A stretch of 64,000 nt of DNA from Nitrospira sp. (lineage in GTDB: Bacteria; Nitrospirota; Nitrospiria; Nitrospirales; Nitrospiraceae): assembly GCA_009594865.1 (NCBI GenBank), contig VOPT01000033.1:62001-126000 (forward strand), in the 5' to 3' direction. Below the pieces are notes generated by a model. The model was not told the DNA's origin, ran no database searches, and saw only the letters and a list, made by a program, of their open reading frames with translations. Below, in pieces: positions 57,574-64,000 of the stretch. Both the position numbers and the translations under genes were made by a program. The stretch's first letter is position 1, and each line of letters begins with the position of its first letter.

Positions 57574-59141
57574 CGAGCCACCTCCCCAACAGCCGCCAGC
57601 TTTTTATCCGGTGCCTTTTTCACCAAGACCCCGACCGTCCGGTTCGGCTTGGTCAGGTACTGGGCGGCCACCCGCTGCACGTCAGCGGGCGTCACGGCGG
57701 CAATCCTGGCACGCGCATTCAACACATACCGCCAGGTGCCGGCGACGGTTTGATAGAACGCCAGTTGCGACGCGAGGCCGCTATTGGAGCGCAACGACCG
57801 CACCAGATCCGCATCGAGTCCATTGAGGACCCGCTCGAACTCCTTCGCCGAGATCGGCTCCGTCTTCAACCGTTCGAGCTCTTCATAAATCGCCGATTCC
57901 ACTTCCGCCGTCGTGTGGGGCGCCAGGGGAGTGGCCGCAATCACGAACAGATTCGGCGCACGAACGCCCGGGTAGTTCGTATCCGACAAGACCGACGCCG
58001 CCAACCGCTTATCCCGCACCAGCGTGCTGTATAAACGCGACGTCACGCCTTCGGTCAGCACTTCGTCGATCACATCGAACACGAAGTCGTCCGGGTGGCC
58101 GATGGTCGGTTTGTGGTAACCGATCGCCAATGCCGGTTCGGCATCGAATTCGATTTCGACCCGGCGCTCGCCGCGCTGCGGCGGCTCTTCTGTCACCAAG
58201 GCCGGGATGGGGGGCGCGGCCGGAATTTTGCCGAAGGTCTGCTCGATCAACGCAATAACCTCTTTCGGTTGGATATCGCCGACAATGGCGACCGTTGCGT
58301 TGTTCGGGCCGTAGTAGGTCTTGAAGAAGGCTTCCGTGGCGGCCGGCGTGAGGGCCATGATATCCGAGCCCCACCCGATCGTCGGCACACCATACTGATG
58401 GGCCTGGAAGGCCGTGGAGGTAAAGGTCTCGTAGAGCAGGCCGTTGGGACTGTCGTCCGTCCGGAGTCGGCGCTCCTCCATCACCACACCCCGCTCTTTA
58501 TAGAATTCGCGCAACACCGGATGCGCCATACGGTCGGATTCCAGCGCCGCCCACAAGGGCAAGCGGTTGGCGGGCAGGCTGATCACATAACGGGTGATGT
58601 CCTTGCCCGTCGAGGCATTCAGGCCGACTCCCCCATGGCGCTGATAGAGCAACGCCATTTCATTGCCCACCACAAACTCGCCCGCCTTGTCCTGCAATTC
58701 CTTGAACCGGCGCTGCAGCTGCTGCACCTCTTGCGATGCCACATGCGACTTGCCTTCCATTTGTGCGCGAGCGGCTTCGTCGCGCTCGCGGCGGTCCAGC
58801 TCGTTCCCGACCGTGGTGAGTTCGTCCAGCACGGCTTGTTCCCGCTCATAATCTCGCGTGCCCACGGTCCGCGTGCCTTTAAATGCCATATGTTCGTAGA
58901 GGTGGGCCAAGCCTGTCAGTCCGACCTGCTCATTCACCCCGCCGACGCCGAAGGTCATGTTGATGCTGACGATCGGCGCTTGATGCCGTTCGACCATCAG
59001 CACGGTCATGCCATTGGCCAGCTTATGTTCAATGACCCGATCGGCCAGGCTCGGGGACTCCGCGTATCCCGGCGCGGCCGCCGCAAGCATGCCAGAGAGG
59101 ATCACAACCCCGATTGTGCGCACTCGTGTGATGCCGATCAT
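57570..59141 (-). CDS. M16-family zinc metalloprotease (active subunit)
   Basis: A 523-residue exported protease. The zinc motif is GLAHLYEHMAFKGT (His80, Glu83, His84), and a downstream helical insertion (about 105-165) is typical of one bacterial subgroup. The C-terminal domain has YYGPNNATVAIVGDI and TEGVTSRLYSTLVRDKRLA. It cleaves peptides in the periplasm. The start overlaps the HAD gene's stop by ATGA, and the inactive partner follows, so this is a two-subunit M16 system like mitochondrial MPP. Confidence 0.9.
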   Translation of the reverse strand: MIGITRVRTIGVVILSGMLAAAAPGYAESPSLADRVIEHKLANGMTVLMVERHQAPIVSINMTFGVGGVNEQVGLTGLAHLYEHMAFKGTRTVGTRDYEREQAVLDELTTVGNELDRRERDEAARAQMEGKSHVASQEVQQLQRRFKELQDKAGEFVVGNEMALLYQRHGGVGLNASTGKDITRYVISLPANRLPLWAALESDRMAHPVLREFYKERGVVMEERRLRTDDSPNGLLYETFTSTAFQAHQYGVPTIGWGSDIMALTPAATEAFFKTYYGPNNATVAIVGDIQPKEVIALIEQTFGKIPAAPPIPALVTEEPPQRGERRVEIEFDAEPALAIGYHKPTIGHPDDFVFDVIDEVLTEGVTSRLYSTLVRDKRLAASVLSDTNYPGVRAPNLFVIAATPLAPHTTAEVESAIYEELERLKTEPISAKEFERVLNGLDADLVRSLRSNSGLASQLAFYQTVAGTWRYVLNARARIAAVTPADVQRVAAQYLTKPNRTVGVLVKKAPDKKLAAVGEVAR

Positions 59142-59788
59142 ATGAAGAGCTCCATCAGTTCCTCCGGTCGTTCAATAAACCAATCCGGTTGGCAAGCCGC
59201 CATCTTTTGACGATTGCCCATACCATACCCCACCGCACAGACCCGAATGCCCGCATTGTGCCCGCCGTTGATGTCATTGGTGCTATCGCCGATGAGCACC
59301 GTGCGATCCTTCTTGACGCCGAGTTGCTCCATCACGTGCACCAGCATGCCCGGCTCTGGTTTCAAGCCGAAGCCATTGTCGCCACCAACCACATAGGCGA
59401 AGTGGTGATGACCGAGCCCTTTCAAAATCACGTTCGTATATTCGATCGCTTTGTTGGTCGCCACGGCTTTGGACTTGGCGGCGTAATGCGCGAGGACCTG
59501 GTCGATGCCGGGGTAAAACACGGTGCGATCCAGGCAATGTTCTAGATAGTGCCCGCGAAAGACACGCAATGCTTGGTCGAAGAGATCCTGATTGTCTTCC
59601 CCGACGGCCAGCCGCAGCAGCTTCTTCACGCCGTCGCCGACGAATCCGAAAATTTCCTCCTGCGGCCGCTCCGGGACTCCCAGCTCGCGCAACGTCAAAT
59701 TGACGCTATCGGCAATATCCCACTTCGATTCGATGAGCGTGCCGTCCAGGTCGAAGATGAGCAAATCGATCTCAGACTTTGTCGTCAT
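59138..59788 (-). CDS. HAD hydrolase, phosphoglycolate phosphatase type
   Basis: A 216-residue HAD-superfamily phosphatase with IFDLDGTLIESKWDI (nucleophile), ATNKAIEY (motif II Thr), GLKPEPGM (Lys), and GDSTNDINGGHNAG (motif III). This set fits Gph-like enzymes that clear 2-phosphoglycolate; other small phosphate esters are possible. The start is the ATG at 59788, which overlaps the preceding stop (ATGA). It lies in the pyk operon. Confidence 0.85.
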   Translation of the reverse strand: MTTKSEIDLLIFDLDGTLIESKWDIADSVNLTLRELGVPERPQEEIFGFVGDGVKKLLRLAVGEDNQDLFDQALRVFRGHYLEHCLDRTVFYPGIDQVLAHYAAKSKAVATNKAIEYTNVILKGLGHHHFAYVVGGDNGFGLKPEPGMLVHVMEQLGVKKDRTVLIGDSTNDINGGHNAGIRVCAVGYGMGNRQKMAACQPDWFIERPEELMELFI

Positions 59789-60345
59789 TCTTTTGCCTTT
59801 CGCAATTCTGCCTGCAACGCCGCCAGCGAAGCCTGCCGCGTTCCGTCTTTTTCTTCCAACATCGCCTGTCGCACCACATTCAACATACGTTTCTGACCGA
59901 CGTGAGGCGGCAGGATCGGCTCCACGATTTTCCACCGCCCGTTGATCACCTTGAGCCGGACACGCGCCTGCTCCGTACCGGGCTCCGGCACGAATCCGGC
60001 GGTATCCAGATACATGACGCCCAGCACGCGAAATTCGACCGGCACCACCACTTCCAACCGATTCACAATCTCCCATTGACGGAAATCATCCGGCACCGTG
60101 AAGCCAGTGATGACGATAACCTTCCCCCAAGCCGGCTCCTCTTTCCAATCGACATACCCAGCGACCGATTCGAAGGAACTGGCGTCAAGCCGCACCCCCT
60201 TGTTGTCGAGGGCAAAATATTTTTCCGCCACTTTGGCCGGCGAATGCGAGACCGCGTTGCTTTGCGCAAGCCCCGGCGAGACCCAGGCCGTCAGCCAGAC
60301 GACTCCCGCCATGAATCCGATGATCGCCGCACGCAGACATATCAT
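59785..60345 (-). CDS. Exported protein of unknown function in the pyk operon
   Basis: A 186-residue protein with a signal peptide (cleavage near SPGLAQ) and a single mixed alpha/beta domain (VAEKYFALDNKGVRLDASSFESVAGYVDW, INGRWKIVEPILPPHVG). The sequence looks like a small NTF2/SnoaL-type fold, but I have no firm family match. It starts 4 nt after pyk and overlaps the HAD gene. Confidence 0.55.
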   Translation of the reverse strand: MICLRAAIIGFMAGVVWLTAWVSPGLAQSNAVSHSPAKVAEKYFALDNKGVRLDASSFESVAGYVDWKEEPAWGKVIVITGFTVPDDFRQWEIVNRLEVVVPVEFRVLGVMYLDTAGFVPEPGTEQARVRLKVINGRWKIVEPILPPHVGQKRMLNVVRQAMLEEKDGTRQASLAALQAELRKAKE

Positions 60346-60349
60346 ACCG

Positions 60350-61801
60350 CTAACCGACCTCGTGCAGTTTCATGAGATTCGTCCCGCCCGGCTGCCCGAC
60401 TCTGGTCCCGGAAAGAATGACGATACGTTGCCCTGCCGTGGCGAGACCGTAGGCCTTCAGCCGCCGCTCGGCCTCGTTGACGCGTTCATCGGTGGTGGAA
60501 ATCTGCGGCATGGTGTGCGGCATGACCCCCCAATAGAGCGCCATCTGCCGGCGGACCGGCTCAAACGGAGTGAAGCCGATGATCGGCGCAGCCGGACGTT
60601 GTTTCGAGACCAGGCGGGCCGTGGTGCCACGCTCGCTGAACGCCACAATGGCCGTAGCACCGGTCGCCGCGGCCGCGGAGGATGCGGATAGGCAGATGGC
60701 CTCTTGGAATGACAGACGCCGGTTGTCCGGCGAGGCTCTCCGGACAAATCCCGGCCCAGTTTCGACCTCCGCCGCGCGCACGATGCGATCCATTACCCGC
60801 ACCACTTCGATCGGATGGTGCCCGACGGCCGTCTCCGCCGACAACATCACGGCGTCGGTGCCATCGAACACGGCATTTGCCACATCCGACGCTTCCGCTC
60901 TGGTCGGCCGCACGTGCTGCGTCATCGACTCCAACATTTGCGTAGCCGTAATCACCAGCCGCCGATGGCGATTCGCGGTGGCGATAATGCGCTTCTGCAA
61001 GACCGGTACGGCTTCCGGCCCCAATTCGACGCCCAAATCTCCGCGCGCGACCATCACCCCGTCCGCCTGCTGCAGGATGGCGTCTAAATCGGTCACGGCT
61101 TCCTGCCGCTCAATTTTGGCGATCACCGGCACGTCGCCGCCGCACTCGGCGATAAGCTGTTTGGCCGCGACGATGTCGTCCGCGCCACGCACAAATGACA
61201 GCGCGATATAATCCACCCCCTGCGCCACCCCGAATCGCAAGTCCTCACGGTCTTTGTCCGTCAACGTCGGCGCACTGACGACCGTGTCCGGGAGGTTCAT
61301 GCCCTTATGGGACGTGACACGTCCGCCCGCCACCACCGTGCATTCCACCGCACCGTCGGCGATGCGATCAGCCGTCAATTCCACGAGGCCGTCGTCGATC
61401 AGTATTTTGGCCCCTGGCCGAATGTCCCTAGTCAGAGCTTGATAAGTCACGGGAATCTCTTGCGCGCGATCAGCGGACAGGAGGGTCCTGGCGCCGATTT
61501 GTCCGCCGGATCGCAAGGTCATCGTCCGCAATCGCACGCGTTGTCCGACGCGCAGTTCCAATGTTCCGTCGATCTCTCCGACGCGAATGCGCGGCCCTTG
61601 CAAATCCTGAATAATCGCCACCGCCACACCCAAGCGGTCAGCGGCTTCGCGAATGGCCTTGATTGCCTGGCCATGTGATGCATGCGTCCCATGAGAAAAG
61701 TTCAACCGTGCCGCATTCATGCCGCTCTGGATCAGTTGCTCAAGCACGCCCGCGCCATCGCTCGCTGGACCGATGGTGCAGACGATTTTTGCTTTTCGCA
61801 T
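60350..61801 (-). CDS. pyk: Pyruvate kinase
   Basis: A 483-residue glycolytic enzyme that makes pyruvate and ATP from phosphoenolpyruvate and ADP. Blocks: MRKAKIVCTIGPAS at the start, ARLNFSHG, VIAKIERQEAV (catalytic Lys), MVARGDLGVELG (metal site). The length is normal. The ATG at 61801 starts at the conserved N-terminus; the longer frame to 62032 is not used. It heads an operon that runs through two M16 genes, and lies opposite the phosphofructokinase fusion at 62012. Confidence 0.96.
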   Translation of the reverse strand: MRKAKIVCTIGPASDGAGVLEQLIQSGMNAARLNFSHGTHASHGQAIKAIREAADRLGVAVAIIQDLQGPRIRVGEIDGTLELRVGQRVRLRTMTLRSGGQIGARTLLSADRAQEIPVTYQALTRDIRPGAKILIDDGLVELTADRIADGAVECTVVAGGRVTSHKGMNLPDTVVSAPTLTDKDREDLRFGVAQGVDYIALSFVRGADDIVAAKQLIAECGGDVPVIAKIERQEAVTDLDAILQQADGVMVARGDLGVELGPEAVPVLQKRIIATANRHRRLVITATQMLESMTQHVRPTRAEASDVANAVFDGTDAVMLSAETAVGHHPIEVVRVMDRIVRAAEVETGPGFVRRASPDNRRLSFQEAICLSASSAAAATGATAIVAFSERGTTARLVSKQRPAAPIIGFTPFEPVRRQMALYWGVMPHTMPQISTTDERVNEAERRLKAYGLATAGQRIVILSGTRVGQPGGTNLMKLHEVG

Positions 61802-62011: not shown

Positions 62012-64000
62012 ATGAGCGCATCGGACAAGCAATCAACGGAACAGTTCGACTTTGTCACGATGGAAGGGCTGCTGGCCTATGGAGAAGCCCTCGCACAACG
62101 TTCATCGAGCGGCAGGTACGTGTTACCGCCGCCGCCCCCCCCGCCATCGACTGACCGGCTACAACAAACACAGACGGCAGCCGACGCGATGAGAGCGTTC
62201 ATCCACCACGTTCAACAGGGGGTGCCGAGCGCCGAGGCCTATCGTGCCGGACGGCAAGAGCTGCTTGCTAAAGCCTGTGGAAATGACCCTCTGGTCTTTT
62301 TCGCCGCGTGGAATCTACTGCTTGCACGCGGCGAACTTGCGCCACTGTATCGTGCGCCAATCGGCGCGACCCAAAAACCTGCACATCGCCGTCCGGTCGC
62401 TATCGTCCCACGGACGCAATTGACTCCTCAGCTGGCCGAAGGCCGGATCGTGCTGGATTTGGGGGATGATCGTTTCTGGTTGCTTCCCCGGGACCTCGGC
62501 GACCGCACGCTGTTCCTCACCATGCGTCACGGTGTCTCCGAGGTCGAGAGCAAAACCCATCGTGTGGGCCGACGACTGGCAAATGTACTCGATACCGAAC
62601 GCGGCGTACCCAGAGCGGATGCTGTCGGGGCGGCCCTGGCCCGCATGGTGGGCGTGGTCGGCCAGCAATTAGGCTATCTGCAATTGCGCAATTATCTCGA
62701 TCCGCGCACGTTTCTTCATCTCATCAGTCACAGCCCCAATACGGAGCAACTCTGCCGCCGTATCACCAAGGCGTTGCTTCCCGACGGGGCAGATGCGGTG
62801 CATCCCCACCGTGAACCGACCTTGGAATCACAGGATTTCGGCTGGGTCACCGGCATGGAGAAACAAGCGGAACTCGACGCGGCAGCGAACGCGTTCGGGG
62901 TGGATGCGAAGACTGCCAAACGACTCATCAAGCACCCGTTCTACAGCTATCCCGGCGGGCATTCATTTTTTGATCTCTATGTCGATGTCATCGACGGTCT
63001 CCACCGGCTGGGCCGAGCCCATCCCGGCGAAGTGTTGTGTCTCTATACACACAGTTCGACCCTGCGCGCGCTGCGCATCTATCTCGACCCACGGCCTTTC
63101 CGCGAAGCGTTTTCGGAGTTCGGCGAATACAAGGAAGGGCAGGACAACGTCGTGCTCCTCACCTTGGAGAACGGCAAACTCTCCGGCTATTCGACCGCCG
63201 TAGGGCTGATTGAAAGCGACCGGGTCGCGCGGGAGGCCTGGGTGACGGTTGAGCGGGAACGCAGTCAACGTGTGACGCTCAAGCCCGGGCGCATCAAACG
63301 ACTGATCGCCTTGGTGTCGGGGGGAGATTTCGGCGGCGGGGGGGCGGCCTTGAAGGAGTTGCGCGTCACCGGCAACCGCTTCGGCCTGGACGTCTTGTTT
63401 GTCCGCCATGGATTTCTCGGCCTGGCCAACAATTGGATCGACGCCGTCACCGAGGAAGATACCCGCGGCATGAGCAGTCATGCCAGCAGCCCCATCGGGA
63501 GCAGCCGGTTTGAGGATTTTAAAGACGAACAGGTGCAACATGCCGCGATGCGTTCCCTGGCGCCCTACCTCGAAGACTCAGCGCTCGTGGTCTTAGGAGG
63601 AGACGGCAGCTTGCGCGGCGCGCGGGCGATCCATGAAACCTACGGGGTGCAAGTGGTCGGCATTCCGGGCACCATCGACAACAATATCGCCGGTACCACC
63701 TCGCTGGGATTTCATTCCGCAATCGCCCTTGCGAATCAATCCATCGAATCACTGAAGGCCACCAGCGCCGCCATGGGCAGTATCTTTTTCGTCGAGGTCA
63801 TGGGCGCGGGATCCGGCCACCTGGCCTTGGCGTGCGCCTACCAGGCCCGGGCGGAAGGGATTCTGGTCAATGAGCATCCCGATCCCGATGCCTATATCGA
63901 AGACATTGTCCTGGGCACCTTACAACGCACATTGGGCGTGCCGAACAAAAGCCATATCTTTGTCGTGGCGGAACGGACCCCTCACCGGCATCACCGGGAA
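62012..64000 (+). CDS. Histidine phosphatase-phosphofructokinase fusion (incomplete at window end)
   Basis: An open frame of 663 codons running off the window. Residues 1-160 are helical with a proline run (about 42-48). Residues about 165-390 are a histidine-phosphatase-like domain: TMRHGVSEVES (Arg172-His173-Gly174) and YTHSSTLRAL (second His347). Residues about 430 onward are a phosphofructokinase domain: LVSGGDFGGGG (434-444), GGDGS (529-533), PGTIDNNIAGT (552-562) and EVMGAGSGHLAL. In the standard enzyme the catalytic segment is TIDND; here the second Asp is Asn, and the usual Arg after MG is Ala. It is probably a bifunctional sugar-phosphate enzyme of glycolysis, with direction and substrate unclear. 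Confidence 0.8.
   Translation, partial: MSASDKQSTEQFDFVTMEGLLAYGEALAQRSSSGRYVLPPPPPPPSTDRLQQTQTAADAMRAFIHHVQQGVPSAEAYRAGRQELLAKACGNDPLVFFAAWNLLLARGELAPLYRAPIGATQKPAHRRPVAIVPRTQLTPQLAEGRIVLDLGDDRFWLLPRDLGDRTLFLTMRHGVSEVESKTHRVGRRLANVLDTERGVPRADAVGAALARMVGVVGQQLGYLQLRNYLDPRTFLHLISHSPNTEQLCRRITKALLPDGADAVHPHREPTLESQDFGWVTGMEKQAELDAAANAFGVDAKTAKRLIKHPFYSYPGGHSFFDLYVDVIDGLHRLGRAHPGEVLCLYTHSSTLRALRIYLDPRPFREAFSEFGEYKEGQDNVVLLTLENGKLSGYSTAVGLIESDRVAREAWVTVERERSQRVTLKPGRIKRLIALVSGGDFGGGGAALKELRVTGNRFGLDVLFVRHGFLGLANNWIDAVTEEDTRGMSSHASSPIGSSRFEDFKDEQVQHAAMRSLAPYLEDSALVVLGGDGSLRGARAIHETYGVQVVGIPGTIDNNIAGTTSLGFHSAIALANQSIESLKATSAAMGSIFFVEVMGAGSGHLALACAYQARAEGILVNEHPDPDAYIEDIVLGTLQRTLGVPNKSHIFVVAERTPHRHHRE

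Follow-up and report, generated by a model that had tools for sequence, protein, structure and literature searches.

A divergent phosphofructokinase domain joined to a predicted histidine-phosphatase fold in one gene of the Nitrospiria, often adjacent to pyruvate kinase

Results

The window, that is, the whole stretch of 64,000 nucleotides analysed here (positions 62001-126000 of contig C4 of a Nitrospira sp. assembly, a contig of 150,971 bases), ends inside a gene on the plus strand that starts with an ATG at 62012, preceded at a distance of 6 bases by GAGG, a plausible ribosome site. The frame is open through the window end (62012..64000) and reaches its first stop at 64354 (C4:126354), still on the same contig, giving a product of 780 aa (P0001). 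Read past the window in this way, the gene bears out the original prediction, according to which one uninterrupted frame carries both a phosphatase and a phosphofructokinase (PFK) domain. From the N-terminus, and all on the plus strand, the product comprises an all-helical region recognized from the secondary structure of the model (residues 17-114, 62060..62353), a histidine phosphatase (branch 1) domain assigned by fold match, Pfam and hhalign (residues ~130-396, 62399..63199), a helical linker between the domains that was taken from the predicted model (residues 401-420, 63212..63271) and a PFK domain assigned by Pfam and fold match (residues 427-773, 63290..64000 and on past the window to 64330). 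Domain searches of both halves returned a Pfam PFK match and, in the family, a His_Phos_1 match, and models confirmed both folds. The full-length AlphaFold2 model (pLDDT 79.8) had a low pTM of 0.55, so that the mutual arrangement of the two domains is uncertain.

Opposite the fusion lies a divergently transcribed pyruvate kinase gene (pyk; 60350..61801, minus strand; TIGR01064, 529 bits against a cut-off of 306), a neighbourhood that had already been noticed in the window and that proved to be recurrent, pyk adjoining the fusion in 27/40 loci (19 divergent, 7 tandem downstream and 1 convergent). At four loci of a related family (f2; L112, L114, L123 and L128) the divergent pyk is ~38% identical to that of the window, the linkage surviving there with a different lineage.

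In the window's protein, Pfam placed His_Phos_1 on residues 263-363 just below the curated cut-off (E 0.001), and all 36 of the 36 family members scanned matched the same domain (best E 7.3e-08). Searching solved structures with the sequence of just the phosphatase domain gave nothing convincing, but fold comparison succeeded: residues ~147-396 resembled phosphoglycerate mutases, PhoE and phosphoserine phosphatase, with VIA-align Z scores up to 16.6 (rmsd 3.2, 204 aligned). The AlphaFold2 model of this half (pLDDT 82.4, pTM 0.84) confirms, as far as a predicted structure can, that the N-terminal half has the histidine-phosphatase branch 1 fold. The two catalytic landmarks named beforehand are in place, the RHG motif at residues 172-174 (62525..62533) and the second catalytic His at residue 347 (63050..63052), each invariant in 56/56 of the fusion sequences on which all residue counts given here are based. 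Together with the fold, both are common to the fusion and to the known branch 1 enzymes (dPGM, PhoE, TIGAR, phosphoserine phosphatase), as are the S-P and PGG-x-S landmarks.

Other positions of the phosphatase pocket are less regular. In the SPNT-x stretch (residues 241-245, 62732..62746) the SPNT is invariant and residue 245 is Arg or Lys in 33/56 sequences, being Glu in the window's species and in nearly all of its genus, while at residues 272-273 (62825..62830) Glu or Asp occupies 272 in 55/56 and Ser occupies 273 in 55/56. In an alignment with ordinary histidine phosphatases encoded by the same genomes (hhalign), the second Arg of the latter falls on 245 and their general acid on 273, roles that we take from knowledge of the superfamily to apply to these aligned residues. 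In contrast to branch 1 enzymes, the fusion would therefore have, as judged from the alignment, no second Arg of the phosphate pocket fixed at position 245 and a Glu/Asp one residue before the usual general-acid position (272 versus 273); it also differs from them in its long insertions and in being always joined to PFK in the genomes searched. The invariant catalytic residues favour activity of the putative phosphatase, with the variable second Arg as a reason for caution.

The PFK half matched Pfam PFK (PF00365) on residues 432-727 (E 1.1e-56, 192.7 bits against a cut-off of 30.9), and residues 427-773 resembled E. coli PfkA (1pfk) with Z 36.0, rmsd 2.0, 314 aligned residues and 29% identity. 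The NCBIfam cut-offs for PfkA were not reached (TIGR02482, 175 versus 371 bits; NF002872, 188 versus 253). A PFK-domain tree grouped the fusions in a single clade (support 100/100), whose stem, at 4.24 changes per column, is roughly as long as the PPi-PFK branch, and since the branches are long the exact position of this clade is unsure. The window genome's second PFK-superfamily gene encodes a PPi-dependent PFK (G000:C24:19516-20733, minus strand; NF041103, 661 bits against an NCBIfam cut-off of 550), which shares only the superfamily with the fusion: it has Asp and Lys at two PPi-type positions, lacks the phosphatase domain and falls on a separate deep branch.

The original prediction had credited this half with a complete set of PFK blocks. 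The blocks could indeed be located, but their completeness was an overstatement, given that the whole family has replaced several of the residues for substrate and cofactor. As in E. coli PFK-1, to which the fold corresponds over the whole domain, the fusion has the GGDG motif (residues 529-532, 63596..63607), the general base and the ATP-type glycines; the glycine at the position that discriminates ATP from PPi (E. coli G104) marks the PFK domain as ATP-type, and Gly is invariant or nearly so at both ATP-type positions (E. coli 104 and 124). The E. coli PfkA residues kept are G11, R72, G102, D103, G104, G108, G124, D127, M169, G170, E222, H249 and R252, and within the family D556, GGDG, R499, E654, H703 and R706 are invariant. 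In GTIDNN (residues 553-558, 63668..63685) D556, the equivalent of E. coli D127, is kept, whereas E. coli D129 has become N558 in 56/56; of these two, D127 is the general base and D129 binds the metal cofactor (PMC10339645). The span with S590 (E. coli R162) and A599 (E. coli R171), at 63779..63808, has lost two phosphate-pocket arginines, and in the alignment E654 (E. coli E222) is followed by a family-specific P-H-x-H-H loop at residues 657-661 (63971..63994). Altogether, the family departs from E. coli PfkA in N17G, D129N, R162S/T, R171A and R243K, in its replaced PEP/ADP effector site (R25 to V/A/S, R54 to E/D and K213 to N) and in the extra N-terminal phosphatase and helical region. Of these changes, those to N, A and K at D129, R171 and R243 are invariable. 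Among ordinary PFKs aligned likewise (n=24), D129 was kept in all, R162 differed in one (L052), R171 in one (L141), and R243 was Lys in a few.

A search with a profile of the N-half found the fusion in 101 Nitrospirota genomes out of 396, every one in the window's class (Nitrospiria) and Ca. N. defluvii as well as single-contig genomes among them, so that the architecture is conserved among relatives within one class. In essentially all 101 carriers one long frame holds both the N-half and the PFK half; the exceptions are due to contig ends and to a single frame break in genome G303 (L146, G303:C1:133000-137000), where the gene is split into two frames and decay or assembly error are both possible. 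The same profile found no stand-alone N-half among the 396 genomes, and homologues in which each half has a gene of its own, which the original prediction had named as evidence against itself, were not found among the Nitrospirota genomes searched. At the sensitivity used, no relatives of the N-half were found on plasmids, phages or viral contigs. For N-half relatives outside Nitrospirota the coverage was one pattern-based scan of 84,980 species genomes, weak for remote relatives, which yielded the fusion in 28 full or partial copies, exclusively from Nitrospirota; the complete Ca. Nitrospira defluvii chromosome encodes it at 91% identity, and the matches following the fusion copies were PFK only, at about 30% identity. 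The fusion is absent from some class members, among them G145, a single-contig genome of the same genus that has a PPi-PFK. Both domains are under strong purifying selection and the helical region, the least constrained part, is less so, with dN/dS of 0.01-0.11 (phosphatase domain), 0.01-0.08 (PFK domain) and 0.05-0.29 (helical region), ratios that are approximate because pS is high in some pairs.

In eight genomes that are close to complete, two consisting of a single contig, the fusion is the sole PF00365 protein (G110, G189, G088, G117, G127, G125, G137 and G206; sole as a member of PF00365, PfkB-type kinases lying outside the search), and pyk is adjacent to it in 8/8. These genomes also have transaldolase and a separate class I FBPase. 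Most Nitrospiria also encode an ordinary PPi-PFK, and four related genomes without any PF00365 protein lack the fusion too. Pyruvate kinase is present and a PF00365 protein absent in three Nitrospiria genomes (G060, G143 and G009). Class I FBPase was present in 20/21 and 28/31 genomes tested, which leaves the idea of the fusion as replacement of a missing FBPase unsupported; in the window's own assembly, which is 85% complete, no such gene was found, and GlpX-type FBPase was found in none of 31 genomes. An archaeal-type FBPase_3 gene lies on C1 of the window's assembly. Transaldolase was present in 25/25 genomes tested, and a sedoheptulose 7-phosphate (S7P) bypass for a missing transaldolase was rejected on that ground.

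Discussion

One gene unites both folds, keeps their core catalytic residues, evolves under purifying selection in both domains and is linked to pyk; the activity of both halves, the substrate and the regulation are inferred. The reading that we prefer, at about even chances, is that of a putative sugar-phosphate kinase of glycolysis, specific to the class (Nitrospiria), to which a domain for phosphatase action or phosphate sensing is attached. A role in glycolysis is indicated because the fusion is the sole PF00365 copy in the eight genomes and because of the pyk linkage. The candidate protein would work at the fructose-6-phosphate (F6P)/fructose-1,6-bisphosphate step, where the kinase half may phosphorylate a sugar phosphate with ATP and the phosphatase half may either remove the added phosphate or bind a phosphorylated metabolite, in either case setting the direction or rate, and might stand in for the lost PEP/ADP effector site. 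Since D129N, R162S/T, R171A and R243K alter the sugar-phosphate/cofactor site, the substrate may be something other than F6P, or the protein may be only weakly active, and with the set of substrate-pocket blocks incomplete in this manner a plain F6P kinase is not to be assumed. Loss of R162 alone would leave F6P possible, because several PPi-PFKs that accept S7P have also lost this residue (PMC10339645). In most Nitrospiria the fusion is probably dispensable for the PFK and FBPase steps, since an ordinary PPi-PFK and a separate FBPase are present.

It is possible, although we would not expect it, that the histidine-phosphatase domain is non-catalytic and serves as a ligand-binding regulator of the PFK domain. 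The irregular pocket would fit such a function, with Arg or Lys at position 245 in little more than half of the sequences, Glu there in nearly all of the genus, and a Glu/Asp one residue before the usual general-acid position; moreover, since the classical PFK effector site is lost, control may have moved. Nevertheless, R172, H173, G174 and H347 are constant in the 56 sequences, and a binding domain is not obviously in need of them.

We regard as rather unlikely a kinase half that has changed its substrate, for example to S7P, with the phosphatase acting on the same or on the resulting compound. The invariant changes in the F6P pocket, together with the conserved P-H-x-H-H loop beside the E222 equivalent, would agree with such a change, as would a stem as long as that of the PPi-PFKs and the fact that several S7P-using PPi-PFKs are likewise without R162 (PMC10339645). 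However, both the linkage to pyk and the genomes with the fusion alone speak for glycolysis, and an S7P bypass would be unneeded because transaldolase is present in all genomes tested.

No less doubtful is a true bifunctional enzyme whose PfkA-type kinase and histidine phosphatase would work against each other on the same sugar-phosphate pair. If true, this would make the fusion a convergent counterpart of the eukaryotic PFK-2/FBPase-2 (PFKFB), switching nitrite oxidisers between glycolysis and gluconeogenesis. PFKFB and the fusion share the idea of a single chain that pairs a sugar-phosphate kinase with a histidine phosphatase. The PFKFB kinase has a P-loop fold and is N-terminal to the phosphatase, whereas the kinase of the fusion would have the PfkA fold and is C-terminal, that is, the kinase fold is different and the domain order reversed. 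The likeness is an analogy and not a homology of architecture.

Improbable, in our judgement, is a PFK half reduced to a non-catalytic, nucleotide-sensing pseudokinase, with the phosphatase as the enzyme: D129N and R171A do fall on catalytic positions, but the general base D556, GGDG, R499, E654, H703 and R706 are invariant, and eight genomes that retain pyk have no PF00365 protein besides the fusion. That two genes were run together in annotation or assembly has next to no probability, given that nothing but the single frame break in G303 speaks for it, and that the identical open frame in about 100 genomes, several of them single-contig, excludes a chance, frameshift or assembly join, the last two of which had been put forward as possible grounds for refutation.

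Yeast PFK, too, is a PfkA-type enzyme with an extra N-terminal domain, although that domain is glyoxalase-like and unrelated to the fusion's phosphatase, and the PFK halves of the yeast enzyme are duplicated (PMC12203962). A 2025 review of the PFK superfamily names no histidine-phosphatase partner domain (PMC12203962), and the fusion is unmentioned in the searchable literature, from which most subscription papers are missing, the N. defluvii genome paper among them. The fusion adds to the phosphofructokinase superfamily a deep, unsampled branch with an altered active site and a domain partner absent from that review. Nitrospira are CO2 fixers that have to drive the hexose-phosphate steps for the most part in the direction of sugar, yet they keep stores that can be burnt. 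A kinase-phosphatase fusion beside pyk in the main nitrite-oxidising lineage is a concrete candidate for setting the direction of hexose-phosphate flow, and its being the only PfkA-family protein in some members of the lineage adds to this candidacy. Two genes beyond pyk, at 59138-59845 on the minus strand, the window also encodes a HAD phosphatase that resembles phosphoglycolate phosphatase and scores below the equivalog cut-offs.
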